Source: Flavobacteriaceae bacterium
GTDB lineage: Bacteria > Bacteroidota > Bacteroidia > Flavobacteriales > Flavobacteriaceae
Assembly: GCA_009886625.1 (NCBI GenBank)
Contig: QXZA01000029.1
Span: forward strand, 62,001 to 126,000
Reading direction: 5' to 3'
Length of the DNA: 64,000 bases
In this document: positions 19,516 to 39,217 of the stretch, one piece after another
Layout: each line of letters starts with the position of its first letter
Position numbering within the stretch: position 1 is the stretch's first letter
Program-made: the position numbers and the translations under genes
Notes under the pieces: generated by a model
Databases searched by the model: none
Told to the model about the DNA's origin: nothing
What the model saw: only the letters and a program-made list of their open reading frames with translations

Positions 19516-20460
19516 CTACTCAGGCAAACGTATAGAAATATTTCTATACTCAACCTTCCCATGGTCCCCTTGAAGCATTATTGGTCCAGGAAGTCCTTCA
19601 TGACTATCTATTGCCCCACCTGTGATGCCTGGAATAATTTGGTCATGAATGATGGTTTTTCCATTAATACTCACAGTGACCCTCCTACCGATTAGTGTAA
19701 TATCAAACTTCTGCCACTCTCCAGCAGGTTTTGCAGCCATTTGATTTGGAGTTAAAAACCCATAAACTGCGCCAAAAAGAATAGAACTTGGATCTTTTCC
19801 ATAACTATCTTCTACTTGAACCTCATATCGCCCCCTAAGATAAATTCCTGAATTACTTCCTTTGGGATAACGAACTTCCAATTGCAATTTAAAATCTTCA
19901 AAAACCTCAGTGCTGCATAAATTTTTACCTGAATATGGATTTTTTAAAATGCCTTCTTCTGCAATCCACTGAGTTTTTTGATCATCAGATTCAGAGCGCC
20001 AACCCTCAAGATTCTTACCGTTGAAAAGAGGTTTCGCTTTGCCAAAATTTACAACTTCTGTTCTTTTTAACTTAGGGGCTCTTTCGCCTTCAAAAGAATA
20101 AGCAATAGAATTACTTCCTAAGATTGTTCCTTTCAATTTTCCATTTTGTAATGTTCCAGAAAAGTGAAGGTCAGTATTTCCATTCCATTGAGGTGGAATC
20201 GTAAAATCAACTATCCCATCATGAAAGTGCACTTCTGAAATTGGACGAGCACTACCATTATACTCTACAAAATAACCAACTAAAGTAGTTCTTCCTGATA
20301 ATTTAACTTCAAGCCATGAAGGGGCAATTTTGTCTTCCATCTGAACATTTAAATCCCATTTTCCAATAATTGACTCCATTTCCTGAGCACCAATTGAGTT
20401 GCTCAACAAAAGAAAAAAAGCTCCAATAAAACCAATACATTTTGTTATTTTGTTTTTCAT
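19516..20460 (-). CDS. Exported DUF1080 (3-keto-disaccharide hydrolase family) protein
   Basis: A signal peptide (ending near IGAQE) is followed by a beta-rich domain of about 100 residues and then a DUF1080 concanavalin-like domain from about residue 130: PLFNGKNLEGWRSE, GSNSGIYLRGRYEVQVED, AGEWQKFDITLIG and the closing GKVEYRNISIRL. DUF1080 proteins have been linked to hydrolysis or elimination of 3-keto-glycosides made by Gfo/Idh/MocA oxidoreductases. It is the last gene of a minus-strand run that begins with the DUF4249/TonB pair (short gaps of about 30 bases throughout). This places it in the periplasmic part of a sugar uptake unit. The exact substrate is unknown. Confidence 0.82.
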   Translation of the reverse strand: MKNKITKCIGFIGAFFLLLSNSIGAQEMESIIGKWDLNVQMEDKIAPSWLEVKLSGRTTLVGYFVEYNGSARPISEVHFHDGIVDFTIPPQWNGNTDLHFSGTLQNGKLKGTILGSNSIAYSFEGERAPKLKRTEVVNFGKAKPLFNGKNLEGWRSESDDQKTQWIAEEGILKNPYSGKNLCSTEVFEDFKLQLEVRYPKGSNSGIYLRGRYEVQVEDSYGKDPSSILFGAVYGFLTPNQMAAKPAGEWQKFDITLIGRRVTVSINGKTIIHDQIIPGITGGAIDSHEGLPGPIMLQGDHGKVEYRNISIRLPE

Positions 20461-20492
20461 TCTTTTTTATTAAAAATTTATTCTTTATTGTG

Positions 20493-21200
20493 CTACAAGC
20501 TAAGGTAATCCGTTCCCAGGTATTTATCCTGCTGATTATAATACCAGGCTCTATCCTTCGGCATTTTTATTCCATATACTTCTATTTCATTTTCTAACAC
20601 TATGTACTCTCCATCGTTTTTTGTTTCATCATGGAAAAATTGATATTGTCGAAGTTTATAGGTGTTTTTATCAAAGTAAAAATACCAAGTGTCTCCTCCA
20701 GTATCTGGATCATAGGTTACTTTTAGAACCCAACATGAAACACCTGCCACTTCTTTTTCTGTAACCACAGGATTTAGTATTGTACCTGGATTTTTGAGTT
20801 TCATAGGAAGACCATACAAATAGGTGTAATAATCCTTATACATCATAGCGCGCTCACAGGTCAATCTATTTTTTTTGGCAACTTCTTCAGAAAAATCGCT
20901 TGAACCATTATATAACAAATCACATTCTTCATCTTTAAGTACTGATACCAATTCATTTCCTCCTGATTCTACAGTTAAGCGAAAAAATGACTTCATGAAA
21001 TCTAATTCGATTTTACTTTTACGAATTGGACGATTAGGGCTTTCCATAGTAACAAAAAAACTCCCTTCAAATTGCTCCCAAACTCCTTCGGGATCATGAT
21101 AAGCTATAGACTTATTTAACAACTCGGTTGCTGTGAATTTTTGTGCCTGTATTGAAACACAAATACAAAAGATAATTACTGAATAGATGTCTTTTTTCAT
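20493..21200 (-). CDS. Exported DUF6503-like protein
   Basis: A 235-residue protein with an N-terminal signal peptide (cleavage likely after CVSIQAQ). The body carries the sequence style of DUF6503 proteins common in Flavobacteriaceae: AYHDPEGVWEQFEGSFFV near the N-terminus, DPDTGGDTWYFYFDK and a C-terminal LGTDYL. The fold is probably beta-rich and similar to lipoprotein-binding or LolA-like proteins, which is inference. Function is not known. It lies between the PfkB kinase and the DUF1080 gene in the same minus-strand run. Confidence 0.7.
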   Translation of the reverse strand: MKKDIYSVIIFCICVSIQAQKFTATELLNKSIAYHDPEGVWEQFEGSFFVTMESPNRPIRKSKIELDFMKSFFRLTVESGGNELVSVLKDEECDLLYNGSSDFSEEVAKKNRLTCERAMMYKDYYTYLYGLPMKLKNPGTILNPVVTEKEVAGVSCWVLKVTYDPDTGGDTWYFYFDKNTYKLRQYQFFHDETKNDGEYIVLENEIEVYGIKMPKDRAWYYNQQDKYLGTDYLSL

Positions 21201-21227
21201 ATTATATTTTTAGGAAAACTAAAAAAA

Positions 21228-22115
21228 TTATTTAGGTCGTACAAAAGTTTCCAAATCGGATTTAGAAATCAATGGATTTGCTCCTGTATTTCCAGCAACA
21301 AGAGTACCCATACCACATGCTAAATCTAAAGTGGTTTGAATATCCTCACCCTTGACCAAACCTAAAACCAGAGTGGCTAAAAAAGAATCGCCTGCACCCA
21401 CGGTATCGACCACTTTAATTTTATATCCACTATTGTAATACCAAGATTTATTGTGGAGCAAGACGGCACCATGTGACCCTTTGGTTACGCATATAATGTC
21501 TGTATTCGTTTCTTGAGAAATATATGTAATATGTTGATCTAAAGAATGAAAAGGGGAGCCCATTTGCGTTGCAATCTCATAAATCTCATCGTCATTAAAT
21601 TTCAACATTTGAGATGCCTGCATTAATACCTTTAGTGTGTTAAGATCATAAAAGGGAGGACGGAGATTTAAATCAAAAACGCTAAATGTTGAAGCTTTTA
21701 ATAAAGATTGTAATGACGCTTTTGAACTTGCTCTTGCGACTAAACTCCCGAAAACAAACGCTTTTGCCTGTTTAACTTTTTCTATGGTACGTGCTGTTGC
21801 TTCAATAAAATCCCATGCAGCGTCTTCTGCAATTTCGTACTGAGCTGAGCCATTATCATCTAAAGTTACAATCACTTTTCCTGTTTCATGTAAAGGATCA
21901 GACTGCAAAAGTTCAGTAGAAATCCCTTGTCGAAGTACTTCTGACCGAATGTTTTTTCCCAATTCATCATCACCTACACGACTTATGAATTCCACATCCC
22001 CTCCTAATCCTTTTATAGAACTAGCAACATTGAAAGGAGCGCCACCCAACATTTTACCACTTGGAAATAAATCCCATAGGATTTCTCCAAAGCAAATTAT
22101 TGTTGTTGAATTCAT
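21228..22115 (-). CDS. PfkB-family carbohydrate kinase (fructokinase-like)
   Basis: A 295-residue ribokinase-fold sugar kinase. It opens with CFGEILWDLFPSGKMLGGAPFNVA, split as the usual GE and GG substrate motifs, and ends with the anion-hole and catalytic motif DTVGAGDSFLATLV, in which the Asp is the base. The sequence FGEILWD and the tract GSAQYEIAEDAAWDFI are typical of fructokinases. It sits third in a minus-strand operon behind a TonB receptor. The uronate pathway in this locus needs a 2-keto-3-deoxygluconate kinase that is otherwise missing, so that activity is a possible alternative, though the motifs look more like fructokinase. Confidence 0.82.
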   Translation of the reverse strand: MNSTTIICFGEILWDLFPSGKMLGGAPFNVASSIKGLGGDVEFISRVGDDELGKNIRSEVLRQGISTELLQSDPLHETGKVIVTLDDNGSAQYEIAEDAAWDFIEATARTIEKVKQAKAFVFGSLVARASSKASLQSLLKASTFSVFDLNLRPPFYDLNTLKVLMQASQMLKFNDDEIYEIATQMGSPFHSLDQHITYISQETNTDIICVTKGSHGAVLLHNKSWYYNSGYKIKVVDTVGAGDSFLATLVLGLVKGEDIQTTLDLACGMGTLVAGNTGANPLISKSDLETFVRPK

Positions 22116-22150
22116 TACTATTTTATCTAACCTATTTATAAGATTTAAAC

Positions 22151-24574
22151 TTAAAGAAATTTAAAGTTATACGCAATTGAAACTAAAGAACCTCTTAAAA
22201 CAGAAAGCTCATAGGATCCCAAAGGGCTACCTCCAAACACATCACCATCTTGAACACCGTTTCGCTGGGTATAATACACATTAAAGGGATTTCTTCTTCC
22301 ATATAAATTATATACCGTAAATGTCCAGTCTCCCTTAAAACGTTTATTTGGATCTTTTCGATAAGCTATTTTCCATGAAAAATCCAAACGATGATAAACG
22401 GGAAGGCGCCCATTGTTTCTTGATAAATAAATTGGAATGGTTACATTTTCTTGATTATAAACCCCATTTGACACTGTATACGGCCTACCCGTTTGTCCAG
22501 TAAAGTTGAAACTAAAAGCATTATAAGCATCACCCTCAAAATTTATTGTAGCATTGACGGTATGAGGTCGATCAAAATCTGAGGCAAACCAATTGTTATT
22601 ATTGATTCTGTTTTGTAATGCCAGCTCATTTGTTTTCAATAAGCTTCGAGACCAAGTGTAATTTACAAATCCATTTACTTTTCCTTTATTCTTACGTATA
22701 CTCATTTCTACCCCATAAGTTCTACCTTGGGCCTGTGTAACTTCTTGTTCCAAAAACTCAGAAAGAAAAAAATTAGCCCCAGGTTTGTAGGTCAAATTAT
22801 TTTCTGTTTTTCTGTAATATCCTTCAGAGGAAATCTCCAAACCGAGATCAGTAAGATTTTGGTACCAACCCAATCCGTAGGTATCATTTTTCTGAGGACG
22901 AATAAACGTATCAGATATTTTCCAGCGAGAAGTGGGTAAAGGTGTGGATGTATTATAAATGTTCTGTATATATTGATAGATTCTAGCATAGCTTGCTTTT
23001 ATCGCACTATTCTCCCCTACCCTATAGTTAATTCCTAAGCGAGGTTCTGGTTTGGAATAATTGACTACTGTTTCTGAACTAGAAAAATCTCTATCACCCA
23101 AAAAAGAGCCACTATCGTCATATTGTCCCTGTTTGAAAGGGCCAAGCAATGCAAAATGGGTATATCGAAGACCAGATGAAACAGAAAATCGTTCCGTTGG
23201 GTTCCAATTCAAATTTGCATAAAGAGAGAGTTCCCTACTCTTCTCATCTTTAAGATTGACAGCCAAAATTGAATTTCCTGAACCTGGATTCAAACTTCCC
23301 GGATTAATATTATATTGATTTAACTGAAGCCCTGCATAATAATTCAACTTTTCATTTCGATTATCTTTATATTCAAATTTAGCATTGGTATACTGTATCT
23401 GTGATTCGTATTTGATCACATTGGTAGATTCAATCTCAGGAAATAAATTTTTAGGTAAATAATTACTATGAACAAAAGTTCCAATAAGATTTGTAGTGTT
23501 ATCAAAACTATACAACCATTTTAATGTGTGGTTTGAGGTCCCAAAGTCATACTGATTTGAAGATGATACAATATTTTCTATAGATGAAATAAGATCCAAT
23601 TGATAAAAATCTTGCGAATAAAAATGAGTATAGGTCAATTGATTGTTCTCATTCGGGAGATACAGTAGTTTTACAGTACTGTCTTTAAAATTAGCTTTAG
23701 TGTTTTTTAATCTTGGTATCAATAAGGGAAACAAAAAGTCTGTAAATCCAATTCGTCCTCCAGCAAGAAGCATCAACTTATCTTTTATAATAGGAGTTGA
23801 TAATGACAGTCGACTTGAAATTACACCTACTCCTCCTTCAAGTCTGAATTTATCGGTATAGGGACTCTTTACTTTAATATCTACAACCGAGGCAATCCGT
23901 CCTCCATATTTTGCTGGAATATTTGCTTGATAAATGTTAACTCCATAAATCACATCGGGTGTGAATACAGAAAATAAACCAAAAAGATGGGTAGGATTAA
24001 AGACTGGAGCAGATTCAAAAAGCATTAAATTTTGATCTAAAGAACCTCCACGGATGGAAACCCCATTGCTTATATCTCCAGAATTATTAACTCCAGCCAT
24101 AAGTGTAATGCTTCTTAATACATCAAACTCGCCCAAAGCTGTTGGGATCTTGATCAAGTCTCTGGCATTCAATTCAAAAACACCCATTTGAGTACTTTCA
24201 ACATTTTGATTTCTTTTTTGAGCGAGTACTATAATCTCTGAGAGCTGTTCTTCTTCGGTCTCCATTGCAACATCAAGAGTAATATTTTTATCTAAAACAA
24301 CAGTAACGTCCTCTTTTTTATAGCCTAAATAATCTATACTTAAGGTGTAGGTATAAGCCTTTAAACGTTTAGAAAATATACCACTTGGATTTGATATCCC
24401 TCCGCAATTACAAGGGTCTATTATCACAGTAACGCTCCCTAAGGGATCTTTTGTTTCTTTATCGGAAACATTAAGCGTCAGTGAATACTCTTGACCATAT
24501 GCACTCATAGAGATGAATATCAATAACAAAGCATTTCCAACTAGCCTATTTGCAGTAATTATTACTCCTCCCAT
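22151..24574 (-). CDS. TonB-dependent outer-membrane receptor
   Basis: An 807-residue receptor: signal peptide (to about SAYGQ), a carboxypeptidase-regulatory-like beta-sandwich (TLNVSDKETKDPLGSVTV), the plug domain (ELNARDLIKIPTALGEFDVLR split over the usual motif, GVSIRGGSLDQNLMLFE) and a 22-strand barrel ending in SIAYNFKFL. It imports a ligand across the outer membrane using TonB energy. Its start overlaps the DUF4249 lipoprotein gene by 13 bases. The receptor is shorter than SusC proteins and is paired with DUF4249, not SusD, so this is not a standard polysaccharide-utilisation receptor. The ligand is unknown; context suggests a small glycoside. Confidence 0.9.
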   Translation of the reverse strand: MGGVIITANRLVGNALLLIFISMSAYGQEYSLTLNVSDKETKDPLGSVTVIIDPCNCGGISNPSGIFSKRLKAYTYTLSIDYLGYKKEDVTVVLDKNITLDVAMETEEEQLSEIIVLAQKRNQNVESTQMGVFELNARDLIKIPTALGEFDVLRSITLMAGVNNSGDISNGVSIRGGSLDQNLMLFESAPVFNPTHLFGLFSVFTPDVIYGVNIYQANIPAKYGGRIASVVDIKVKSPYTDKFRLEGGVGVISSRLSLSTPIIKDKLMLLAGGRIGFTDFLFPLLIPRLKNTKANFKDSTVKLLYLPNENNQLTYTHFYSQDFYQLDLISSIENIVSSSNQYDFGTSNHTLKWLYSFDNTTNLIGTFVHSNYLPKNLFPEIESTNVIKYESQIQYTNAKFEYKDNRNEKLNYYAGLQLNQYNINPGSLNPGSGNSILAVNLKDEKSRELSLYANLNWNPTERFSVSSGLRYTHFALLGPFKQGQYDDSGSFLGDRDFSSSETVVNYSKPEPRLGINYRVGENSAIKASYARIYQYIQNIYNTSTPLPTSRWKISDTFIRPQKNDTYGLGWYQNLTDLGLEISSEGYYRKTENNLTYKPGANFFLSEFLEQEVTQAQGRTYGVEMSIRKNKGKVNGFVNYTWSRSLLKTNELALQNRINNNNWFASDFDRPHTVNATINFEGDAYNAFSFNFTGQTGRPYTVSNGVYNQENVTIPIYLSRNNGRLPVYHRLDFSWKIAYRKDPNKRFKGDWTFTVYNLYGRRNPFNVYYTQRNGVQDGDVFGGSPLGSYELSVLRGSLVSIAYNFKFL

Positions 24575-25722
24575 AAAAGTGGTTTTACTTTAGTTTGATT
24601 TCGTTTCTCAACGCAAGGAGATTCATAGGTTATAGGATTTGGAAGAGGATCTCCTAAAAGTTCTGGTTGAGGGACTCTAAAAGAACTTACTGGTGCTTGA
24701 GAAATAGTGCCTCGCTTTATAAAAACAGACTTAGTTGTTGCTGCTGCTGCAGTAAAACGACCCAACACAGGGTCTTCCGTATCATTAGGGTTATAAAAAT
24801 TCCCTATCAATGCAGAGGGAAGTGGCGCATTGAATCCACTGTTGTTATCGACAATGTCCTTTAATGTTTTATAATATTTATGGGCCTCTTCAGTAATGTT
24901 CAATTGAAGAACCTCAACCAATACATCTTGCCTAGTGTTAAGAGGTAACCTCCCTACTAATAAATTTGAAATCGATTTTCCATTTGTAAAAGCATCATCA
25001 AAAAGAGAAATCTCTTGATTATATGTGATTTTCCAGCATGTTTGGTCACACAAATAAGTGTAATACTCTTTTGCTAAGGGATTATCAATTTGAGAAACAC
25101 ATTCTCCAAATCGTAGAACACCATTATTACATAGCGCACAATAAAGTTCTTTTTCGTAGGCTCTGTATTGAAAGTAATAAAAATTATCCTCCTCTGATGG
25201 TTCTTGAAAATCGATTTTAATCTCGTGTCCTGGAATGAATTTTCCTGACGCCTCGTCAAAAGCCATTTCTTTATTGTATGTATCTGAAATAGTTTCTATT
25301 GAAACTGCTGCTGGAACTTTTTCAGAAAGCGATTTGTAGGTTTTTCCAGAGGGAGTAAGCACCTCTAGCTCCCACTGCGAACCTTCTTGGACACTAAAAT
25401 CGGCAGAAACTAAATAATTCTCGCTCTCTTCGTACAATGGGACTTCCTCCTTAGTAACACTATTGATCAGTTTTACTTTACAGCCTGTAACGAAAACAGC
25501 TTTGTACATACCGAACTCTAAGAAAGTTTTTTTTACACTAACGAAAGTTGTACCAGGAACAGAAGACGCGATTGCATCTACTATAACCAAATCTTCTATA
25601 AAATCAAATTGAGGAACTACAGGGTCAATACAAGAATTGAAGAAAATTAATAATATAAACAAACTAGTTATATAGAACTTATTAATTGAGGCTAATTGAG
25701 TTGTTTTAAAAAATATTTTCAA
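24562..25722 (-). CDS. DUF4249 lipoprotein partnered with TonB receptor
   Basis: A 386-residue lipoprotein with a late lipobox in LLIFFNSCIDPVVPQ (cysteine near residue 31). After it comes a beta-sandwich region (VSVKKTFLEFGMY, LEVLTPSGKTYKS) characteristic of DUF4249, with a cluster of cysteines in the middle (LYCALCNNGVLRFGEC, CDQTCW). DUF4249 proteins usually sit beside a TonB receptor and are thought to be surface or periplasmic partners in ligand uptake. It is the first gene of a minus-strand run of five genes. A perfect 16-base palindrome lies 79 bases upstream, in the divergent promoter region. Confidence 0.85.
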   Translation of the reverse strand: MKIFFKTTQLASINKFYITSLFILLIFFNSCIDPVVPQFDFIEDLVIVDAIASSVPGTTFVSVKKTFLEFGMYKAVFVTGCKVKLINSVTKEEVPLYEESENYLVSADFSVQEGSQWELEVLTPSGKTYKSLSEKVPAAVSIETISDTYNKEMAFDEASGKFIPGHEIKIDFQEPSEEDNFYYFQYRAYEKELYCALCNNGVLRFGECVSQIDNPLAKEYYTYLCDQTCWKITYNQEISLFDDAFTNGKSISNLLVGRLPLNTRQDVLVEVLQLNITEEAHKYYKTLKDIVDNNSGFNAPLPSALIGNFYNPNDTEDPVLGRFTAAAATTKSVFIKRGTISQAPVSSFRVPQPELLGDPLPNPITYESPCVEKRNQTKVKPLLWEE

Positions 25723-25863: not shown

Positions 25864-26700
25864 ATGATCAATTTTCCCATCCACAAAATCTTACTTGTTT
25901 TATTCGTTTTTGCAAGCATTCCAATTCAAGCTCAAGAATTTGGCATTCAACTATACAGCCTTAGAAACCAATTTAAAACAAATGTTGAACAATCTCTAAA
26001 AAAAATTTCAGATTGGGGAATCACCACAATTGAAGCGGGAGACACTTATGGAATGGAGGAAGAAAAATTTAGAGGCTTATTGAAAAAACACAATCTAAAT
26101 CCTGTCAGCATAGGAGCTAGCTATGAGGACCTTAGAGACAATCCAGCCGCAGTAGCAGAAAAAGCGAAACGATATGGAGCTAGCTTTGTGATGTGTTCAT
26201 GGATACCTCACCAAAAAGATAAATTTTCAATAAAAAACACTAAATCAAGTGTTGATGTGTTTAATCGAGCTGGGTCACTTTTAAAAAAGAAAGGGATCAC
26301 TCTGGCCTATCATGCACATGGATATGAATTCAAGCCATATGAATATGGAACCTTATTTGATTATATGGCTCAAAATGCAAAACACTTTTCTTTTGAAATG
26401 GATGTTTTCTGGGTTCAACATGGGGGTCAAGACCCACTAAAACTACTCGAAAAATATCCAGATTTTGTAGTAATGTTACATCTAAAAGACATGCAAAAAG
26501 GAGTAGTTGGAAATTTTAGTGGTGGAGAGGATGTTGAAACAAATGTTGCGCTAGGCAATGGTCAAATAGATATTGAAGGAATTGTTAAGAAAGCAAGTGA
26601 CTTGGGGGTTCAATATATGTTTATTGAAGATGAATCCTCAAAAGTACTAAACCAAGTACCTAAAAGCTTAAGGTTTTTGAAGTCAATTAATCTAAATTAA
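25864..26700 (+). CDS. Exported sugar isomerase/epimerase-like TIM-barrel protein
   Basis: A 278-residue protein with a signal peptide (cleavage likely after SIPIQAQ) and an AP-endonuclease-2/xylose-isomerase-like TIM barrel. Visible motifs are FGIQLYSLRNQF at the first strand, TTIEAGDTYG, YHAHGYEF, FEMDVFWVQHGG with metal-type Asp/His, MLHLKDMQKG and FIEDES at the end. These supply the usual Glu, His, Asp and Glu metal ligands. Related exported proteins accompany Gfo/Idh/MocA oxidoreductases and DUF1080 proteins and may act on keto-sugars by epimerisation or elimination. Here the gene stands alone on the plus strand, facing away from the TonB operon, with the palindrome upstream. Confidence 0.83.
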   Translation: MINFPIHKILLVLFVFASIPIQAQEFGIQLYSLRNQFKTNVEQSLKKISDWGITTIEAGDTYGMEEEKFRGLLKKHNLNPVSIGASYEDLRDNPAAVAEKAKRYGASFVMCSWIPHQKDKFSIKNTKSSVDVFNRAGSLLKKKGITLAYHAHGYEFKPYEYGTLFDYMAQNAKHFSFEMDVFWVQHGGQDPLKLLEKYPDFVVMLHLKDMQKGVVGNFSGGEDVETNVALGNGQIDIEGIVKKASDLGVQYMFIEDESSKVLNQVPKSLRFLKSINLN

Positions 26701-28534: not shown

Positions 28535-28975
28535 ATGAGAGTACTATTAATCCTAATACTTTTGCCCTTTATGTTGTTTGCACAACAAGAAGAGTTTAAA
28601 CTCACTTTTAATCATCAAGCTTTACCCGTAAAAAAACTTCAAGAAACAGGAGATTTTTATATTCATATTTTAGGATTCGAGGAAATGGAAGTTACTGCCA
28701 GTCAAGCCAATCCAAAAAGATGGATACGTAATCATGAAGGAAAACAATTACACCTAATTTCAAGTGAGGACGGCACTCCAAATACAATTGTTAATCATAT
28801 TGCATTTTCAACACATAATCTTGAGGCTGTAATTGCTCATTTAAGAAATAATAAAATAGATTACTGGACAGATGAAGGACAAAAAAATGTCATAAGAATC
28901 AGAAAAGATGGTGTTCGTCAAGTTAAAATACAAGATCCTGAAGGCCATTGGATCGAAATAAATGAGGCAAACTAA
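28535..28975 (+). CDS. Exported VOC (glyoxalase/dioxygenase-fold) protein
   Basis: A 146-residue protein that begins with a signal peptide (MRVLLILILLPFMLFAQQ) and then one vicinal-oxygen-chelate unit: NHQALPVKKLQETGDFYIHI, NTIVNHIAFSTHNLEAVIAH (motif separated by two residues) and the C-terminal VKIQDPEGHWIEI strand with its metal-type Glu. Members bind a metal and act as isomerases, dioxygenases or binding proteins. A signal peptide on a VOC protein is uncommon, so a periplasmic metal-dependent step on a keto-sugar is possible but unproven. Its stop overlaps the uxuA stop by four bases in convergent orientation. Confidence 0.82.
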   Translation: MRVLLILILLPFMLFAQQEEFKLTFNHQALPVKKLQETGDFYIHILGFEEMEVTASQANPKRWIRNHEGKQLHLISSEDGTPNTIVNHIAFSTHNLEAVIAHLRNNKIDYWTDEGQKNVIRIRKDGVRQVKIQDPEGHWIEINEAN

Positions 28976-30974: not shown

Positions 30975-32168
30975 CTAAAAATTATAAGAGGGATCCCATT
31001 CAATGGTTTTATTTTGATCCATAGCACGAATTCCCATATCAATTGCATAAGACACCTTAGCGCCAGAAATAACATCGGACAAAGGAGGTATCCCTTTGAC
31101 TATGGAATCCCGAAAGTCCTCAAGTGCTTGCTGGGTAGGATCTATATGATCAAAGTCTAATGGTATTCCTTTCCCCGCTTCCCAATTTGTTGTAGCACCA
31201 GAAACTCCATCCACATCACCGTACTTTTTAGTATAAGATCCCTCTGGATAAAACCAAGCTTTCGCATAGTCAAGTACCATAGTGCCCTTATCCCCCATCA
31301 CATGTATTTTATAATCGTCCTTTGCATTTCCTGTCAAACACGTATAACTTGCTTTTACACCGTTTGGATATGCATAAATCACATGAGTGTTATCATAGGT
31401 CTCTCTGCCATCTTTCCAGTAGTCTATACCACCAAAACCCGTAACTTTCTCTGGATGAGAATCGAACAACCAATTAGCAAAATCAATTTGATGAGAACTC
31501 AATTCTGCAAGCAATCCGTAGGAATATTCTCGGTACATTCTCCAGTTTATTTGTCTTTCTAATGTTTGATCAGGAACAGGACGTCTCCAATTTCCATTTC
31601 GATTCCATTGGGCTCTTATACTATTAACTTTTCCAACTTTACCATCTTTGATGAGCTCTACTGCATGAGTATATAATCGAGAACTGTGATATTGATGCCC
31701 CGTTTGAAATATTTTTTTATGGCTTTTTAAAACTTTATTGACTAAGTCTTTTGTTTCCTTTGCCCCTTTTACCATTGTTTTTTCACAGTAAATATGCACA
31801 TTAGCATCCACTGCATCGGAAGCTATTTTTGCATGAGTATTCAAAGGAGTAGTGATGATTATTGCTTCAATATCTTTATTTTCAAGAAGCGCAATATGAT
31901 TTTTATACTTTTTAGCATTAGGTGAAATTTTAGAAGCATCTTTCAATCGAAAACTCAACGTATCGCACAAACCAATGATCTCTAAACCTTCTATTCTGTT
32001 AAGAATACGCATTAATCCCATCCCCCTACTTCCAGTACCAATAATCCCAATTTTAACGGTATTTACTTTTTTAAAGTTGATGATTGAAAAATTACTGCTT
32101 GGATAAGCCACCGAGGCAGATAATAGGGTTGCAGCTGTTCCCAAAAATTTTCTCCTATCTTTTTTCAT
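30975..32168 (-). CDS. Tat-exported Gfo/Idh/MocA oxidoreductase
   Basis: A 397-residue dehydrogenase with a twin-arginine signal (KKDRRKFLGTAATLLSASVA) followed by the Rossmann motif GIIGTGSRGMG. The catalytic dipeptide region reads YCEKTMVK (equivalent to EKP). The C-terminal beta-sheet domain follows. Export in folded form fits members that keep NAD(P) tightly bound, as in the periplasmic glucose-fructose oxidoreductase. In combination with DUF1080 proteins such enzymes are candidates for 3-oxidation of glycosides. It is the first gene of the minus-strand operon that also makes the SDR and UxuA, so it shares regulation with the uronate pathway. Confidence 0.9.
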   Translation of the reverse strand: MKKDRRKFLGTAATLLSASVAYPSSNFSIINFKKVNTVKIGIIGTGSRGMGLMRILNRIEGLEIIGLCDTLSFRLKDASKISPNAKKYKNHIALLENKDIEAIIITTPLNTHAKIASDAVDANVHIYCEKTMVKGAKETKDLVNKVLKSHKKIFQTGHQYHSSRLYTHAVELIKDGKVGKVNSIRAQWNRNGNWRRPVPDQTLERQINWRMYREYSYGLLAELSSHQIDFANWLFDSHPEKVTGFGGIDYWKDGRETYDNTHVIYAYPNGVKASYTCLTGNAKDDYKIHVMGDKGTMVLDYAKAWFYPEGSYTKKYGDVDGVSGATTNWEAGKGIPLDFDHIDPTQQALEDFRDSIVKGIPPLSDVISGAKVSYAIDMGIRAMDQNKTIEWDPSYNF

Positions 32169-32306: not shown

Positions 32307-33698
32307 ATGAAAAATACTCAAAAGAAATTGGCCATTATCACACTTCTACTCGTCCTGTGTAATCCTTTATTACCCAAAGCCCAAAACACCCCTTGGGAAA
32401 TACTTTTCGATGGAAGTAACCTCGACGTATTTGAGAAATTAAATGGAGATGCCTCTTATGAAATTGAAAATAATACACTAGTTGGGATTTCTAAACTGAA
32501 TACACCCAATAGTTTTTTGGCAACCAAAAAAAAATACACTGATTTTATACTAGAATTTGATGTAAAGATTGATAATGGACTTAATTCTGGTGTCCAATTT
32601 AGAAGTAACAGTTTTGCTGAATATCAAAACGGTCGAGTGCATGGGTATCAGTGTGAAATAGAAACAAGCGATCGACGATGGGCTGGAGGTATTTATGATG
32701 AAGCCAGGCGTGGATGGCTCTATCCTCTAACAAGAAATAAAACAGGTCAAACAGCATTCAGAAATGGTGACTGGAATCACTACCGCATTGAAGCGATAGG
32801 AGATCAAATAAGAACTTTTGTTAATGGAATTCAATGTGCAAATTTGGTAGACAACATGACTCCTGATGGGTTTATTGCTTTTCAAGTTCACAGCATTGGT
32901 AATAAAGAAGATGATGGAAAAAAAGTACGGTGGAAAAACATTAAAATTTTAACCCAATCTCTTGAAAAGTTTAGAAATCCAATCTCAACTTATGCTGATG
33001 AAATCAGTTACCTAGACAACACACTCACTCCTAATGAAATTCGCAAAGGGTATCGTTTATTATGGAATGGAAAAACCACCCTTGGTTGGGAAAGTGCCAA
33101 AGGAAAAATGTTTCCAAAAAAAGGCTGGAATATTTTAGAAGGAACACTGCAAGTTGAAGCCGCTGACGGATCAGAATCTGAAAATGGAGGCGATATTGTT
33201 ACCCTTGAAAAATTTTCAAACTTTGAATTAAGTGTTGATTTCAACTTAACAAAAGGAGCCAACAGTGGGATAAAATACTTTGTAAATACGGATTTGAATC
33301 AAGGAGAGGGATCGGCTATTGGATTGGAATTTCAAATTTTAGATGACAAAAATCATCCAGATGCAAAACTTGGGAAAAATGGAAATCGAACTGTTGGTTC
33401 ACTATATGATTTAATTCGTGCTGAAAACAGGACGACAGGAGGTAGAGGTAAAAATTTCAAAGGAATTAACACATGGAATAACGCAAGAATAGTGGTTAAA
33501 GATGGACATGTAGAACATTGGTTGAATCACGTAAAAGTTGTTGAATTTGACCGATTTAGTCAAGTTTTTGAAGCTTTGGTAGAAAAAAGTAAATATGAGA
33601 AATGGGAACAATTTGGGCGCTGGCCTGAAGGAGTAATTCTACTCCAAGATCACGGCGATAAAGTTTCTTTTAAAAACATTAAAATCAGAGAATTTTAA
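32307..33698 (+). CDS. Exported double-domain DUF1080 protein
   Basis: A 463-residue protein with a signal peptide (to about LLPKAQ) and two DUF1080 domains. The first, at about residues 30-215, starts [18 protein letters not shown] and includes [11 protein letters not shown] and [10 protein letters not shown]. The second, at about 245-463, starts [17 protein letters not shown] and includes [11 protein letters not shown] and ends [12 protein letters not shown]. Both keep the family's Glu/Asp-rich sugar-binding face, so neither is obviously dead. DUF1080 is associated with 3-keto-glycoside cleavage. It opens a plus-strand operon in which the next gene, starting three bases later, is a Tat-exported Gfo/Idh oxidoreductase. 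Confidence 0.88.
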
Positions 33699-33701
33699 AT
33701 T

Positions 33702-35033
33702 ATGAAAAATACAAGAAGAAATTTCATAAAGAAGACATCCCTTGGTACAGCTTCTGTAGTTGTGGGTGCATTAAGCCCAAACTTTATGATTGGTAGAAAT
33801 ATCCTTGGGGCAAATGATCGAATTAATTGTGCTATTGCTGGAGTAAGAAGTAGAGGAAAAGCTCATGCTGCCGCTATCCATCTTCAAAAAAATGCTAATA
33901 TAGTTTACAGTTGTGATGTTGATGATGAAATCATTGAAGAACACAACCTCTGGAGTAAAAAAAACTTAGGTTATATTCCTAAGGTTGAAAAAGATTTCAG
34001 GAAACTTGTAGAAAACAAAGACATTGATGCTATTTTTATTGCCTCACCAGAACATTGGCATGCCCCTATGGCTATCATGGCGATGCAAGCAGGTAAACAC
34101 GTCTACTTAGAAAAACCCTGTAGCCATAATCCTCATGAAAATGATTTATTAGTCGCTGCTCAAAAAAAATATGGTCTCAAAGTTCAGATGGGAAACCAGC
34201 AACGCTCTGCTGTCACAACTATTCAAGCGATTTCAGATATTAGAAATGGGATCATTGGAGAAGCTTATAAAGGAGAAGCTTATTATTCAAATAATCGAGG
34301 GTCTATCGGAATTGGTAAAGAAATTCCTGTGCCTGAAACTTTGGACTGGGAATTATGGCAAGGTCCAGCACCTAGAAAAAATTACAAGGATAATATTCAT
34401 CCATATAATTGGCATTGGTTCAGAAATTGGGGGACAGGAGAAGTTCATAATAATGGAACTCACGAAATTGACATTTGCCGCTGGGCTCTGAATGAGGAAT
34501 TGCCTGAAAGCGTTACCTCAGTTGGTGGAAAATACACTTTTCAAGATGATTGGGAATTTGTAGACAATCAACAGGTTACTTTTCAATATCCTAAAAATAA
34601 ATTTATCTCGTGGACTGGACATAGTCGAGGGTTAATCCAACCAAAACGTCCAGGGAGGGGAGTAACCATTTATGGTAGTAAAGGAGTTATTCAACTTGAT
34701 AGAAATTTTTATAAACTTTTCGACCTTGGAGGAAATCTAATCAAATCTGTATTTGAAAATGCTGTAAGTCAAACCACGGATACCCGAGGCCAAGGTCAGT
34801 TGGATGTGAATCATGTCGAAAATCTTTTTAATGCCATAAGAGAAGAAAAATCTTTAAATGCTGAAATAAAAGACGCTAGTATTTCAACTATGTTATGTCA
34901 TCTTGCCAATATGGCTCAGGATGCGGGAGAAACACTTCATATTGATCGAAAATCAGGAAAAGTTTTGAATAATGCAATGGTAATGAAAAATTGGAAACGA
35001 GAATATGCCATGGGCTGGGAACCAAAGATTTAA
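33702..35033 (+). CDS. Tat-exported Gfo/Idh/MocA oxidoreductase (second copy)
   Basis: A 443-residue protein with a model twin-arginine signal, NTRRNFIKKTSLGTASVVVG, and then CAIAGVRSRGKAHA as the nucleotide-binding turn. The catalytic stretch is VYLEKPCSHN (EKP motif), and the C-terminal domain carries the conserved NWHWFRNWGTGEVHNNGTHE block, here split by short turns. It is not a recent duplicate of the other Gfo/Idh protein: length and C-terminal motifs differ and match the longer bacteroidete/planctomycete subgroup. It probably oxidises a sugar hydroxyl in the periplasm. It is three bases downstream of the double DUF1080 gene and 20 bases before uxaC. Confidence 0.9.
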   Translation: MKNTRRNFIKKTSLGTASVVVGALSPNFMIGRNILGANDRINCAIAGVRSRGKAHAAAIHLQKNANIVYSCDVDDEIIEEHNLWSKKNLGYIPKVEKDFRKLVENKDIDAIFIASPEHWHAPMAIMAMQAGKHVYLEKPCSHNPHENDLLVAAQKKYGLKVQMGNQQRSAVTTIQAISDIRNGIIGEAYKGEAYYSNNRGSIGIGKEIPVPETLDWELWQGPAPRKNYKDNIHPYNWHWFRNWGTGEVHNNGTHEIDICRWALNEELPESVTSVGGKYTFQDDWEFVDNQQVTFQYPKNKFISWTGHSRGLIQPKRPGRGVTIYGSKGVIQLDRNFYKLFDLGGNLIKSVFENAVSQTTDTRGQGQLDVNHVENLFNAIREEKSLNAEIKDASISTMLCHLANMAQDAGETLHIDRKSGKVLNNAMVMKNWKREYAMGWEPKI

Positions 35034-35053
35034 ATAATAATTCAATTATTGTA

Positions 35054-36463
35054 ATGGACTCATCTCAAAAAAATTTTATTCATTCCGACTTTCTACTAGA
35101 GAGCAAAGAAGCTAAGGAGCTCTATCATAATTATGCCGCTCCGCTTCCAATAATTGATTACCACAATCACCTATCGCCCGAGGCCATTGCAAACAACACC
35201 TTATTCAACAATATTACAAAGCTATGGCTTGCTGATGATCACTATAAATGGAGAGCTATGCGGACATTAGGTATAAATGAGAGATTTATAACCGGTGATG
35301 CATCAGATAAAGACAAATTCATCAAGTTTGCTGAAGCTATGCCCTATATGTTAAGAAATCCATTGTATCATTGGACACATCTTGAACTAAGTCGATATTT
35401 TGGAATTAAGGAACAACTCTCTTTAAAAAATGCAGAAGCTATTTATGAAGAAACTTCTGCCTTAACACAAACAAAAGAATATTCAACGCAATCATTGCTT
35501 GAAAAAATGAATGTTGAAATGCTTTGTACAACCGAAGATCCTATTGATAGTTTACAGCATCATACATTTTTAGCAAAATCAGATTTTAATACAAAAGTTA
35601 ATACTGCCTTCAGACCCGATAAAACTTTATTCATTAATGGATCTTCGTATAACACCTATATTGATCAATTAGAAGAAGCCTCAAATGGTTCGATTGACAC
35701 TTATGAAGATTTATGCATCGCTTTACAAAAACAAATTACTTTTTTTCACAGTAAAGGCTGTAGACTTTCAGATCATGGCCTAGAATACATTCCTTTCCAA
35801 CTGACCGACCAAAAAGAAATTGACAGAATATTTAGAGCGAAAAGATCAGGTGAAAATATTAGCCCGTTAGAATCTGAGCAATTTCAAACAGCACTTCTGA
35901 TATTTTTAGGAAAAGAATATTCGAAACTGGGGTGGGTGCAACAATTCCATCTAGGAGCCATGAGAAATAACAATACCAGGATGCTAAATAAAATGGGGCC
36001 AGATTCCGGTTGGGATTCTATTGGTGACTATTCTATCGCATTCGGACTTTCACGTTATTTAGATTTGTTAGACAGTACCGATCAGCTTTCAAAAACAATT
36101 TTATATAATCTCAATCCTGCTGATAATGAAATCATGGCAACCATGATTGGGAATTTTAATGATGGAAGTGCTAAAGGGAAAATTCAATGGGGATCAGGAT
36201 GGTGGTTTATGGATCAATTAGACGGCATGTCTAATCAAATAAATACTCTGTCAAACATGGGATTGATTAGCTGTTTTATTGGAATGCTTACAGATTCTAG
36301 AAGTTTTTTATCTTTTCCAAGGCATGAATATTTCAGGAGATTATTGTGTAATATTTTCGGTCAAGAAATGGAAAAGGGGCTACTCCCTAACGACCCAAAA
36401 TGGGTAGGAAAAATCGTCTCTGACATATGTTATTACAACGCAAAAGAGTATTTTAAGTATTAA
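35054..36463 (+). CDS. uxaC: Glucuronate isomerase
   Basis: A 469-residue uronate isomerase that converts D-glucuronate to D-fructuronate (and D-galacturonate to D-tagaturonate). The start at 35054 gives MDSSQKNFIHSDFLLES, matching the family; an upstream in-frame ATG at 34991 lies inside the previous gene. Landmarks are PIIDYHNHLSPEAI with the metal-type His-x-His, the DHGLEYIPF block, WVQQFHLGAMRNNN and the closing RHEYFRRLLCNIFG. The enzyme links the MIOX product glucuronate to the SDR/UxuA steps. It sits between exported glycoside-processing genes and a TRAP transporter on one operon. Confidence 0.96.
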   Translation: MDSSQKNFIHSDFLLESKEAKELYHNYAAPLPIIDYHNHLSPEAIANNTLFNNITKLWLADDHYKWRAMRTLGINERFITGDASDKDKFIKFAEAMPYMLRNPLYHWTHLELSRYFGIKEQLSLKNAEAIYEETSALTQTKEYSTQSLLEKMNVEMLCTTEDPIDSLQHHTFLAKSDFNTKVNTAFRPDKTLFINGSSYNTYIDQLEEASNGSIDTYEDLCIALQKQITFFHSKGCRLSDHGLEYIPFQLTDQKEIDRIFRAKRSGENISPLESEQFQTALLIFLGKEYSKLGWVQQFHLGAMRNNNTRMLNKMGPDSGWDSIGDYSIAFGLSRYLDLLDSTDQLSKTILYNLNPADNEIMATMIGNFNDGSAKGKIQWGSGWWFMDQLDGMSNQINTLSNMGLISCFIGMLTDSRSFLSFPRHEYFRRLLCNIFGQEMEKGLLPNDPKWVGKIVSDICYYNAKEYFKY

Positions 36464-36498
36464 TTATATTTTCGATGGATCCGTTATTTTAAAAGATT

Positions 36499-37470
36499 AT
36501 GAAACAACTTTTAGCCCTAGTCTTAATCCTATTTATCACTTCATGTGATAATGAAAAGAAATTCCGCGTCATTCGATTAGGCCATGGATTAGACGTTAGT
36601 CATTCTGTTCATCAAGCTATGATAAAAGCGGATCAGTATCTTAATGAAATTTCTAGTGGTAAAATGCGAATACAGATCTATCCTAACCAACAATTGGGAA
36701 GTGAAAGAGAATGTTTAGAATTGCTTCAAATTGGAAGTCTGGACATGACTAAAGTATCTGGTGCAGTCATGGAAAATTTCGCACCCAATATGCGAATATT
36801 CGGTCTCCCATTTCTTTTTGATGATAAAGAACATTTATTTCGCGTTTTAGATGGTCCTATTGGAAAGTCTCTTCTAAAAGATGGAGAAGATTTTTGGCTC
36901 AAAGGTCTTGGTTATTATGATTCTGGAAGTCGAAGTTTTTATACACGTGATCGTCCAATCACCATCCCTAAAGATCTTGAAGGTTTAAAGATTAGAGTTC
37001 AAGAAAGTGCTTCAGCTTTTGAAATGGTAAAACAACTTGGAGGCTCCCCTACTCCAATTTCATGGGGAGAATTATACACTTCTATTCAACAAGGCGTGGT
37101 GGATGCCGCTGAGAATAATCCCCCAAGTTTTTATCTCTCTAGACATTACGAAGTGTGTAAATATTATAGCATAGATGAACACACCATGATTCCAGATATT
37201 CTTTTGGTAAGTACTCACTTGTGGAACCGTTTAAATATCCAAGAACAAGAATGGCTCCAAGCGGCTATTGATCGATCTGTCAAAGACCAAAGGGGATTTT
37301 GGACTATTTCTGAAAATATAGCGTTAGAGGCAGTAATAGCTGCGGGAGTAATCGTCAGTTATCCCAAGAAAGAACCCTTTCAAAAGGCAACTAAGGGAAT
37401 GTATGAAGAATTCAAAAAAGATTCAGTAATCGCATCTTTAATCAATCAAATTCAAGATGAAAAGAATTAG
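36499..37470 (+). CDS. dctP: TRAP transporter substrate-binding lipoprotein (DctP family)
   Basis: A 323-residue periplasmic binding protein with lipobox LILFITSC (cysteine at residue 16). The family blocks LGSERECLELLQIG, GLKIRVQES (arginine that binds the substrate carboxylate) and SWGELYTSIQQGVVDAAENN are present. The conserved arginine means an acidic ligand. Position immediately after uxaC points to a hexuronate such as glucuronate. It is followed by dctQ with a 14-base overlap. A lipid anchor in place of a free periplasmic form is a small departure from the proteobacterial type. Confidence 0.93.
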   Translation: MKQLLALVLILFITSCDNEKKFRVIRLGHGLDVSHSVHQAMIKADQYLNEISSGKMRIQIYPNQQLGSERECLELLQIGSLDMTKVSGAVMENFAPNMRIFGLPFLFDDKEHLFRVLDGPIGKSLLKDGEDFWLKGLGYYDSGSRSFYTRDRPITIPKDLEGLKIRVQESASAFEMVKQLGGSPTPISWGELYTSIQQGVVDAAENNPPSFYLSRHYEVCKYYSIDEHTMIPDILLVSTHLWNRLNIQEQEWLQAAIDRSVKDQRGFWTISENIALEAVIAAGVIVSYPKKEPFQKATKGMYEEFKKDSVIASLINQIQDEKN

Positions 37471-37915
37471 AACTCAAGTTGACACCTTGGTTGGCAAGAT
37501 ACTCATACTAATCCTAGGATTGATGGTGATAAATGTATTATGGCAAGTATTTAGTAGGTATTTCACAGACAGCCCAAGCTCTTTTACAGAAGAATTAGCA
37601 AGGTATTTAATGGTGTGGCTTGGAGTTTTAGGAGCAGCGTACGTTTCAGGTAGAGACGAACATGTTGCCATTGATTATTTTGCAAAAAAAAGTGGATCAA
37701 AATTAAAAAAATGGCTCAAAGATTTTATTTCGTTTAGTCTAATCACCTTTGCTGCTTTAGGATTTGTAATTGGAGGAGGACGTTTGGTTTTCATTACTAT
37801 GAAATTAAAGCAATACTCTCCTGCACTCCAAATTCCACTTGCCTTAGTTTATCTAATTATTCCAATTAGTGGACTACTCATTATCTTTTATGAAACAACA
37901 AAAAGCTCAAAATAA
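37457..37915 (+). CDS. dctQ: TRAP transporter small membrane subunit (DctQ)
   Basis: A 152-residue membrane protein with four hydrophobic segments, at about residues 11-33, 48-66, 88-110 and 127-147. SSFTEELARYLMVWLGVLGA is the characteristic DctQ stretch and RDEHVAIDYF follows it. It forms the Na+-driven TRAP transporter with DctP and DctM. Overlap with dctP and a three-base gap to dctM indicate coupled translation. Confidence 0.93.
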   Translation: MKRIRTQVDTLVGKILILILGLMVINVLWQVFSRYFTDSPSSFTEELARYLMVWLGVLGAAYVSGRDEHVAIDYFAKKSGSKLKKWLKDFISFSLITFAALGFVIGGGRLVFITMKLKQYSPALQIPLALVYLIIPISGLLIIFYETTKSSK

Positions 37916-37918
37916 GTC

Positions 37919-39217
37919 ATGGAATTTTTACCTGTCATAATACTCGTTTTAAGTTTTGTATTTTTTATATGTATTGGAACCCCAGTTGCATGGAGCATTG
38001 CAATCTCCTCATTATTAACTATCATTGTATCAATCCCCTTATTACCGGCAGTCACAACCATTGCTCAAAGAATGGCAACTGCGCTTGACAGTTTTGCATT
38101 GCTGGCCATTCCATTCTTTATCCTTTCTGGACAATTGATGACACAAGGAGGGATTGCAGATCGTTTAATACGCTTTGCCAAAACTATAGTAGGGGCACTT
38201 CCAGGTGGATTAGCCTTAATTAATATTATTTCCGCAATGCTTATGGGAGCAATTGCAGGATCTGCTATGGCATCGGCATCAGCAATGGGAAGCATATTAG
38301 GGCCCGAAATGGAGAAAGAAGGGTATGCAAAACAATACGGAGCGGCAGTCAATATAACCTCAGCAACTATTGGACTCATAATTCCACCAAGTAATGTGCT
38401 CATCGTTTACTCTCTAGCTAGCGGAGGAGTTTCTATAGCAGCATTATTTTTAGCTGGCTATATCCCAGGAATATTAACAGGTTTATTCCTTATGATTGTG
38501 GCAGGAATTTTGGCAAAAAAACATCACTATAAGACTTTCAAAAGAAGCTCTCTCAATGAAATAGTTCACTCTTTTCTAATTGCTTTTCCCAGTTTACTAT
38601 TACTTGTGATTGTGATTGGTGGAATCGTTGGTGGTCTTTTTACTGCAACTGAAGCCTCTGCAATTGCTGTTCTATATTCTGTTGTCTTAGGCTTTGTGTA
38701 TAAAGAAATTAAATTCAATGACATTCCTAAAATTTTGTTGGACTCTGCAAAAACAAGTGCAGTAGTCATGCTCCTTATAGCAGCTTCAATGGGAATGTCA
38801 TGGATTATGTCCTATGAAAACATCCCACAAAACTTAAGTGATTTTTTGTTAAACATAAGCGACAACAAAATAATCATCCTCTTTATAATCAATATTTTAC
38901 TTTTGTTTATTGGGATCTTTATGGACATTACACCTGCAGTATTGATTTTTACTCCTATTTTTTTGCCTGTAGTAAAAACCTTAGGGATTGATCCTATTCA
39001 ATTTGGTATCATGATGGTCCTCAATCTGTGCATAGGATTGTGTACTCCACCAGTAGGCTCAGTACTTTTTGTTGGTGTTGGAATTGCAAAAACTAGTATA
39101 GAAAAAGTTATACGCCCACTACTTCCAATGTTTTTTTCAATGATTTTAGCTTTGATTCTAATTACATTTATTCCACAAATCACCTTATGGTTACCGCGTA
39201 TATTCAATACCATTTAA
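37919..39217 (+). CDS. dctM: TRAP transporter large permease subunit (DctM)
   Basis: A 432-residue polytopic permease with about 12 membrane segments and the inverted-repeat motifs of the family (FFILSGQLMTQGGIADRLI, GAIAGSAMASASAMGSILG, IPPSNVLIVYSLASGG and the second-half NLCIGLCTPPVGSVLFVG). It carries the substrate and sodium ions. It ends the plus-strand operon that starts with the double DUF1080 gene. Confidence 0.95.
   Translation: MEFLPVIILVLSFVFFICIGTPVAWSIAISSLLTIIVSIPLLPAVTTIAQRMATALDSFALLAIPFFILSGQLMTQGGIADRLIRFAKTIVGALPGGLALINIISAMLMGAIAGSAMASASAMGSILGPEMEKEGYAKQYGAAVNITSATIGLIIPPSNVLIVYSLASGGVSIAALFLAGYIPGILTGLFLMIVAGILAKKHHYKTFKRSSLNEIVHSFLIAFPSLLLLVIVIGGIVGGLFTATEASAIAVLYSVVLGFVYKEIKFNDIPKILLDSAKTSAVVMLLIAASMGMSWIMSYENIPQNLSDFLLNISDNKIIILFIINILLLFIGIFMDITPAVLIFTPIFLPVVKTLGIDPIQFGIMMVLNLCIGLCTPPVGSVLFVGVGIAKTSIEKVIRPLLPMFFSMILALILITFIPQITLWLPRIFNTI

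Follow-up and report, generated by a model that had tools for sequence, protein, structure and literature searches.

A Flavobacteriaceae locus combining 3-keto-glycoside and uronate genes: a candidate glucuronide pathway with a side entry for myo-inositol

Positions 19516-39217 of a 64,000-nucleotide window from a Flavobacteriaceae bacterium (G000:C22:62001-126000, within a 1.9-Mb draft genome; "the window" is that whole stretch) contain a locus whose core is uronate handling (UxuB-UxuA-UxaC-DctPQM) combined with a 3-keto-glycoside module, DUF1080bb-Gfo2-Gfo1. The myo-inositol oxygenase MIOX is a facultative member. By a slight balance of the evidence, the locus is best explained as a system for glucuronide catabolism into which myo-inositol has a side entry. 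A sequence-only reading had proposed a single system that opens an inositol- or uronate-containing glycoside by 3-oxidation in the periplasm, instead of by hydrolysis, and routes the products into the uronate pathway; on balance, the evidence favours that single-system reading. It consists of gene content and its conservation, a repeated association of the 3-keto module with uronate operons, a metal-ligand pattern in an exported TIM-barrel protein, uronate-type residues in DctP, and the presence of Eda and a KDG-kinase-like gene (KDG, 2-keto-3-deoxygluconate) in the genome.

In the proposed route, a glucuronic-acid glycoside would enter through the TonB-dependent receptor and be oxidised at C3 in the periplasm by Gfo2. 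DUF1080bb, the TIM-barrel protein or both would then remove the aglycone by beta-elimination and rehydrate the product, Gfo1 would return 3-keto-glucuronate to glucuronate by reduction, and DctPQM would import the glucuronate. UxaC, UxuB and UxuA would convert it to KDG, and a KDG kinase and Eda, whose genes lie outside the locus, would take this on to pyruvate and glyceraldehyde-3-phosphate. MIOX would turn myo-inositol, either the released aglycone or separately acquired, into glucuronate that joins the same route. For the periplasmic part, each catalytic step, the order of steps and the substrate are inferred.

The products have a uronate route in the genome. UxaC, UxuB and UxuA all pass curated NCBIfam cut-offs, and the short-chain dehydrogenase/reductase (SDR) of the locus is of the UxuB type, a D-mannonate oxidoreductase, because it exceeds the cut-off of PRK08277. 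The operon of G024, the closest relative, also contains a KDG-kinase-like gene and Eda; homologs 79% and 71% identical to these copies, respectively, lie together elsewhere in the window genome. The G024 Eda passes PRK07114, whereas its KDG kinase passes no model (222 vs 440 bits) and is named by similarity and place. The locus PfkB was rejected as the KDG kinase because the ortholog of the G024 gene is at G000:C16. The KDG-kinase-like gene and Eda have there (80000-99900, L171) a SusCD-like pair and, judged by eye, MFS-like and GntR-like proteins as neighbours; this region may be a locus for alginate or another uronate. Uptake by a uronate-type tripartite ATP-independent periplasmic (TRAP) transporter is suggested by DctP, which aligns with 4n91 and 4mhf, both described as D-glucuronate binders (PMC7660916). 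DctP keeps R145, R166, N206 and D233, and thus the two arginines and one asparagine of D-glucuronate binding proteins, with distances from R166 of 21, 40 and 67, vs 20, 40 and 67 in STM3169.

MIOX aligns with the inositol oxygenase of PDB 2huo through its His/Asp motifs, which presumably include the iron-binding residues, and belongs to the MIOX family. The joint inositol/uronate route of the sequence-only reading changes in one respect, in that the core is uronate and not inositol: inositol was rejected as the core substrate because the core occurs without MIOX in G003, G007 and G238. A canonical Iol pathway was likewise rejected, as Gfo1 and Gfo2 score 83.4 and 77.2 bits against the 355 required for IolG, and the IolE score is 50.2 against 290.

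The 3-keto pathway of Bacteroides thetaiotaomicron BT2157-BT2158 was reportedly the subject of a 2024 Nature study. As in that pair, an exported Gfo/Idh/MocA dehydrogenase adjoins a PF06439 (DUF1080) protein in the window, and DUF1080bb adjoins Gfo2 in most of the Gfo2 loci read across the family. DUF1080bb matches PDB 4jqt over nearly its full length (562.6 bits). The best NCBIfam match of Gfo2 is BT_2158_fam, "glycoside 3-dehydrogenase", at 159.5 bits against a cut-off of 750, and the Gfo1 profile aligns over positions 36-377 with PDB 8tdi, "P2B11 Glucuronide-3-dehydrogenase", fifth in score behind four matches that cover the N-terminal part only. Among characterized relatives, BT2158 is a periplasmic glycoside 3-dehydrogenase (PMC11300592), while PMC9007349 cites BT2157, a PF06439 protein, as a 3-ketotrehalose hydrolase and states that lactose use in Caulobacter requires a PF06439 protein. 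On paper, the parts list for opening a glycoside by 3-oxidation is complete, with two Gfo/Idh proteins, DUF1080 domains and a TIM barrel with an eliminase-type metal pattern; that the substrate is a uronide, more precisely a glucuronide, is what the genomic context points to.

The TIM-barrel protein may share a mechanism with AtOGE of Agrobacterium, a TIM-barrel metalloenzyme with ligands H132, D163, H189 and E233 and catalytic H134 that beta-eliminates 3-keto-glycosides, within a pathway ordered as oxidation, elimination, hydration and reduction (PMC10628242). Its H150-x-H152, D180, H206 and E255 reproduce the eliminase-type pattern with spacings of 30/26/49, vs 31/26/44 in AtOGE. The HxH/D/H/E motif is conserved in three other same-genus TIM-barrel sequences and in G238, and AP_endonuc_2 proteins in two loci of another MIOX type, described below, lack HxH.

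Every gene named in the sequence-only reading is an open reading frame (ORF) at its claimed place in the interval, with a Pfam score above cut-off (Table 1). This holds for the three DUF1080 domains in two exported proteins, since PF06439 is found once in DUF1080a and twice in DUF1080bb. The claim of two Gfo proteins with twin-arginine translocation (Tat) signals was borne out in part: both have RR-motif N-termini, but only Gfo2 matches the NCBIfam Tat model TIGR01409. Among the 18 interval proteins scanned there was no SusD, no regulator family and no glycoside hydrolase (GH) besides PF06439, as had been claimed. The TonB receptor is paired with DUF4249 and lacks a SusD partner, so the locus is not a polysaccharide utilization locus of the SusC/SusD kind.

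Table 1. Features of the interval 19516-39217 (positions in the window)
Feature	Coordinates	Strand	Basis
DUF1080a, exported, N-terminal extension and one PF06439 domain	19516..20460	-	Pfam; kept in several same-genus loci
DUF6503 exported protein	20493..21200	-	Pfam; absent from the sequence-only reading
PfkB-family sugar kinase	21228..22115	-	Pfam; best NCBIfam model fructokinase, below cut-off
TonB-dependent receptor	22151..24574	-	Pfam
DUF4249 protein, paired with TonB receptor	24562..25722	-	Pfam
APendo, exported TIM-barrel protein, proposed 3-keto-glycoside eliminase or hydratase	25864..26700	+	Pfam AP_endonuc_2; H150-x-H152, D180, H206, E255
MIOX myo-inositol oxygenase	26874..27734	+	Pfam 361 bits; aligns with PDB 2huo
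NIPSNAP protein, exported	27743..28486	-	Pfam
VOC/glyoxalase-fold protein, exported, facultative	28535..28975	+	Pfam
UxuA mannonate dehydratase	28972..30150	-	TIGR00695 above cut-off
UxuB-type D-mannonate oxidoreductase (SDR)	30160..30963	-	NCBIfam PRK08277 349.9 bits, cut-off 281
Gfo1, RR-motif exported Gfo/Idh/MocA, proposed 3-keto reductase or second dehydrogenase	30975..32168	-	Pfam; PDB 8tdi alignment
DUF1080bb, exported, two PF06439 (3-keto-disaccharide hydrolase/lyase) domains	32307..33698	+	Pfam, two stretches; PDB 4jqt
Gfo2, Tat-type exported Gfo/Idh/MocA, proposed glycoside 3-dehydrogenase	33702..35033	+	Pfam; TIGR01409 Tat signal
UxaC glucuronate isomerase	34991..36463	+	Pfam 662 bits; NCBIfam PRK02925 589.8 bits, cut-off 387
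DctP, TRAP binding protein, predicted uronate binder	36499..37470	+	Pfam; PDB 4n91, 4mhf matches
DctQ, TRAP small membrane subunit	37457..37915	+	Pfam
DctM, TRAP large membrane subunit	37919..39217	+	Pfam

The genes fall into four strand groups: DUF4249-TonB receptor-PfkB-DUF6503-DUF1080a (minus); TIM barrel-MIOX (plus); Gfo1-UxuB-UxuA and NIPSNAP (minus), with the plus-strand VOC gene between them; and DUF1080bb-Gfo2-UxaC-DctP-DctQ-DctM (plus), in which neighbours overlap or are separated by 3 to 35 bases. The UxaC frame begins at a TTG (34991), and an ATG at 35054 is the likelier start. The box TANNTTTG is matched once ahead of MIOX (26844); neither of the two divergent intergenic stretches contains it.

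Conservation within the genus was assessed in 60 genomes, 37 of the window's genus and 23 of other families. MIOX is present in 25 of them, all same-genus; the 23 genomes of other families gave no match. Twenty same-genus MIOX loci were fetched out of 24 relatives with a MIOX match (G019, G023, G025 and G026 were excluded); genes in them were named by similarity to the named proteins, with Pfam applied to selected loci. The excluded G019 stretch (L068) has a partial MIOX close to an SSS symporter. MIOX adjoins UxuA, UxuB and Gfo1 in 13/20 fetched loci, a recurrence taken to exceed chance. Within these 13 block-keeping loci, NIPSNAP is found in 12, the receptor with DUF4249 in 12, VOC in five and the TIM barrel in three, and DUF1080bb lies beside Gfo1 in nine, two further contigs stopping at Gfo1 (L033, L035). 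The exported DUF6503 and NIPSNAP proteins travel with the block in many same-genus loci. DUF1080bb occurs in 19/23 same-genus genomes, in one as a fragment.

Two relatives keep the core without MIOX, which has no match anywhere in either genome. G003 carries DUF1080bb-Gfo2-UxaC-DctPQM and Gfo1-UxuB-UxuA-NIPSNAP together with GH95 and ThuA, and the receptor/DUF4249 pair is missing there; G007 resembles it and likewise lacks the pair, but a different Gfo replaces Gfo2. GH95 within the block of close relatives is Pfam-confirmed in two and found by similarity in others. The phrase "instead of by hydrolysis" in the sequence-only reading thus describes the window interval, where PF06439 is the only candidate, and does not extend to those close relatives.

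The remaining 7/20 loci combine MIOX, a Gfo/Idh protein of 334-353 amino acids and an SSS symporter (by Pfam for one). This second type comprises L046, L038, L041, L048 and three others; in several of the seven, the genes are divergent from a Tat-like TIM-barrel protein and are followed by a permease-sized protein and RidA-, D-amino-acid-enzyme- and dipeptidase-like proteins (by eye).

The block is also kept outside the genus, so that the check for co-conservation proposed with the sequence-only reading is largely passed, and the search for the same gene set in other Flavobacteriaceae found it in another order in Flagellimonas and Allomuricauda. In a scan of named genomes by MIOX alignment, from which 80 of at least 573 places were kept, a single-strand operon UxuB-UxuA-MIOX-symporter-UxaC-DctPQM-DUF1080bb-Gfo2-Gfo1 was found in Flagellimonas hymeniacidonis (strain 176CP5-101, L132, where it is compact) and in two Allomuricauda, with a divergent LacI-like gene (by eye) ahead of the operon in 2/3. 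Two Maribacter have UxuB-UxuA-MIOX-symporter and, on the opposite strand, a 755-amino-acid protein, a Gfo2-like protein and DUF1080bb; in the one that was scanned, the 755-amino-acid protein is of GH78 type. Genes in loci outside the genus were likewise named by similarity, apart from selected loci that were scanned with Pfam. Mere synteny of close genomes was rejected as the explanation because the same set occurs in other orders elsewhere in the family.

The association was quantified in a sample of 299 genomes from the family of Flagellimonas hymeniacidonis, to which the window's genus also belongs, since the sample includes same-genus G187 and G343 (MIOX coordinates as in G024 and G033). 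MIOX was found in 55 (E 1e-60), DUF1080bb in 105 and Gfo2 in 100 (E 1e-90). Clade-A MIOX was defined as at least 71% identical to the Flagellimonas MIOX; a second clade, B, found in 30 of the 299 genomes and 44-49% identical to the Flagellimonas MIOX, served as control, and expectations assume uniform placement. The distance from clade-A MIOX to DUF1080bb is at most 30 kb in 7/23 genomes with both (0.47 expected, tail 2e-7), or 6/22 without same-genus G187 (0.44 expected, tail 3e-6), and at most 10 kb in three (0.16 expected), statistics that ignore shared ancestry; for clade B the 30-kb count is 1/29 (0.45 expected).

A tree of 68 Gfo2 proteins bears on the uronate link itself. Twenty are uronate-linked (eight of the window's genus), 11 lie in GH loci and 37 elsewhere. 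The uronate label requires eight changes, at least five of them forced by well-supported branches, against a mean of 17.6 for shuffled labels, none of 500 shuffles being as low. Uronate linkage thus arose or disappeared several times, which speaks for a functional tie more than for a single ancient neighbourhood. The operon also occurs without MIOX nearby: the stretches fetched from G238, G171 and G186 show the uronate operon and the module but no MIOX, G238 carries the full uronate-plus-3-keto operon, and its genome has no MIOX match.

Several observations count against a dedicated glucuronide system. No inositol transporter was found in the window locus, and the shared-ancestry caveat applies to the MIOX-DUF1080bb co-location. 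DUF1080bb presence is unspecific, with 23/27 clade-A and 29/30 clade-B MIOX genomes having it, and G171 and G186 have MIOX elsewhere in the genome. A downstream flank (PLP decarboxylase, MscS) is syntenic as well, so gene order partly reflects general synteny. Within the genus, a Gfo2 ortholog (at least 76% identical) occurs in 12/23 genomes searched; three MIOX-block genomes (G005, G013, G017) have only a 37-38% homolog, and in G017 and G005 (L031, L032) an aldo/keto reductase, not DUF1080bb, follows Gfo1. As the TIM-barrel gene is in only 3/13 block-keeping loci, its product cannot be the sole eliminase. At the protein level, Gfo1 and Gfo2 reach 93.2 and 159.5 bits against BT_2158_fam, far under its cut-off of 750, and 43.7 and 24.6 bits against BT_2159_fam (cut-off 650), so neither is a member of these curated equivalogs. 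The top PDB scores of Gfo1 are 3ec7, "Putative Dehydrogenase", and 3cea, "Myo-inositol 2-dehydrogenase", and by the 4n91 alignment DctP does not keep Asn35 and Gln36 of STM3169, which are described for glucuronate binders.

The module itself is also general and not uronide-specific. Among 55 Gfo2 places, a non-random set of 15 (six chosen for nearness to MIOX, nine from the top of the list) and 40 from the hit list, UxaC or UxuA was found in the fetched stretch at 3/40 and at seven overall (G262, G238, G171, G186, G204, G310 with UxuA only, and G090). An invariable link of the 3-keto module to uronate genes was accordingly rejected, and since the module often stands without a nearby uronate gene, the uronide substrate is inferred from context. 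Many Gfo2 places are instead GH78 and GH92 loci, or a recurrent chromosomal setting without uronate genes. In this recurring neighbourhood (L161, L163, L167, L174, L175, L178-L181 and others), Gfo2 is mostly accompanied by Gfo1 and in many cases by DUF1080bb, and the surrounding genes encode proteins of about 490, 195, 180, 302, 186, 319 and 290 amino acids, which suggests a more general role of the module.

A narrower form of the glucuronide reading, for which the case is tentative and on the unlikely side, holds that the substrate is a glucuronosyl-inositol headgroup, for example of glycosyl inositol phosphorylceramides (GIPCs): the 3-keto module would cut the bond between glucuronic acid (GlcA) and inositol, and MIOX and UxaC would use the halves. 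It is prompted by a locus of about 31 kb in G262 (L150/L151) with SusC, SusD, GH115, GH92, GH29, PI-PLC-C1 (a phosphatidylinositol-specific phospholipase C domain), a metallophosphatase, a regulator-sized large protein, MIOX and a symporter, divergent to DUF1080bb-Gfo2-Gfo1-UxuB-UxuA-UxaC-DctPQM. By sequence similarity, G243 and G349 are like G262 up to Gfo1, G342 likewise with no Gfo1 seen, and G070 and Maribacter polysiphoniae are partly similar. M. polysiphoniae DSM 23514 has MIOX, GH115, a GH92-like gene and a PI-PLC gene at a distance of about 15 kb from MIOX. PI-PLC-C1 is present in 7/7 such genomes searched, four of which were already known to have it. According to PMC9113257, plant GIPC headgroups contain mannose, hexosamine, glucuronate and inositol phosphate, and the main Arabidopsis species is Mannose-GlcA-IPC (IPC, inositol phosphorylceramide); abstracts call GIPCs the predominant plant glycosphingolipids. 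For the window's genus, a PI-PLC-dependent lipid locus was rejected, as PI-PLC-C1 occurs in 0/17 of its genomes, the window's included, and in 0/3 Flagellimonas/Allomuricauda genomes. GH92 and GH115 are not among the scanned proteins of the window locus, and GlcA-IPC is termed plant-specific in PMC9113257, while nothing in the data ties the window's genus to plants.

Because of the 0/17 count, the lipid-headgroup idea is a family-level proposal and an extrapolation for the window. In that form it would be an undescribed Flavobacteriaceae system for glucuronosyl-inositol (GIPC-like) headgroups, a suggestion put forward with considerable doubt: the full form would comprise SusCD, GH92, GH115, GH29, PI-PLC, phosphatase, MIOX, symporter, 3-keto module and uronate operon, and the window would hold a reduced form that imports released glucuronosyl-inositols, cuts them by oxidation and elimination rather than by hydrolysis and sends both halves to glucuronate. 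Large loci with GH92, GH115, GH29, PI-PLC-C1 and metallophosphatase (L150/L151, L152/L153, L154/L155, L156/L157, L172 and L173), with MIOX, symporter and 3-keto module where the stretch reaches, are possibly inositol-glycolipid utilisation loci. Flavobacterium flevense has GH92 close to MIOX-symporter; following that pair (L094:12518-14446) is a protein with glucosamine-6-phosphate isomerase and PIG-L (GlcNAc-PI de-N-acetylase) domains, and a 642-amino-acid protein of the same size stands at the matching place in six more Flavobacterium loci.

A chance or regulatory neighbourhood of two separate systems, namely an ordinary inositol/uronate pathway (MIOX, UxaC, UxuB, UxuA, DctPQM) and a 3-keto module for neutral sugars, also appears unlikely. 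The frequency of the module without uronate genes, including GH78-type loci (L202, L206, L207, L210-L212), the three MIOX-block genomes without a Gfo2 ortholog, the fructokinase-like PfkB of the locus and GH95 in relatives' blocks would all fit this explanation. DUF1080bb-Gfo2, however, runs into UxaC-DctPQM on one strand with short gaps or overlaps, and the same combination recurs in other orders across several lineages. Much less probable is a conversion of scyllo-, chiro- or methylated inositols into periplasmic myo-inositol for MIOX by the exported Gfo proteins: among the PDB matches of the Gfo1 profile a myo-inositol 2-dehydrogenase ranks second, and most same-genus blocks read contain MIOX, but the Gfo2-Gfo1-DUF1080bb-uronate set occurs in G238 and same-genus G003 with no MIOX found, the IolG scores of Gfo1 and Gfo2 (83 and 77) are far from 355 bits, and the PF06439 domains would be left without a role.

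If the glucuronide reading is correct, the non-hydrolytic 3-keto route extends from neutral sugars to uronic-acid glycosides, and bacterial MIOX becomes a marker of a glycan-degradation context. The analysis also provides a concrete gene set, in named strains, for the use of glucuronides and inositol glycolipids by Flavobacteriaceae. The gene combination appears new, each piece being already known. No title or abstract start in the literature searched linked MIOX to a 3-keto module or described a GIPC locus in bacteria, a search whose limited coverage of subscription journals does not establish absence from print; passages of PMC9246714 and PMC11036162 showed neither.

One of the closest known systems is BT2157-BT2158 of B. 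thetaiotaomicron, which also pairs an exported Gfo/Idh dehydrogenase with a PF06439 protein (PMC9007349, PMC11300592) and in which C3 oxidation precedes cleavage, the order proposed here for the window locus. The described substrates there are disaccharides and similar neutral glycosides, whereas the window module is embedded in a uronate operon, accompanied by MIOX and a TRAP transporter of the uronate type, and its Gfo proteins are far under the BT_2158 equivalog cut-off. Within the genus, the MIOX-Gfo/Idh-symporter loci (L038, L046 and five more) share a MIOX homolog, with 72-74% identity for the four that were aligned, but there MIOX is followed by a Gfo/Idh protein without a visible signal and by the SSS symporter, with no DUF1080bb-Gfo2 in the stretch. 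With the plain glucuronate/mannonate route fed by hexuronate TRAP uptake (PMC7660916), the window shares UxaC, a UxuB-type enzyme, UxuA and the transporter type; it differs in being coupled to a periplasmic 3-keto module and MIOX. The AtOGE/GlycDH operon of Agrobacterium (PMC10628242) resembles it in the sequence of oxidation, elimination, hydration and reduction, here a proposal, and in the HxH, D, H, E metal site of a TIM barrel. That operon encodes GlycDH, one further Gfo oxidoreductase and two TIM-barrel proteins, whereas the window has two Gfo/Idh proteins, one TIM-barrel protein and a two-domain PF06439 protein.

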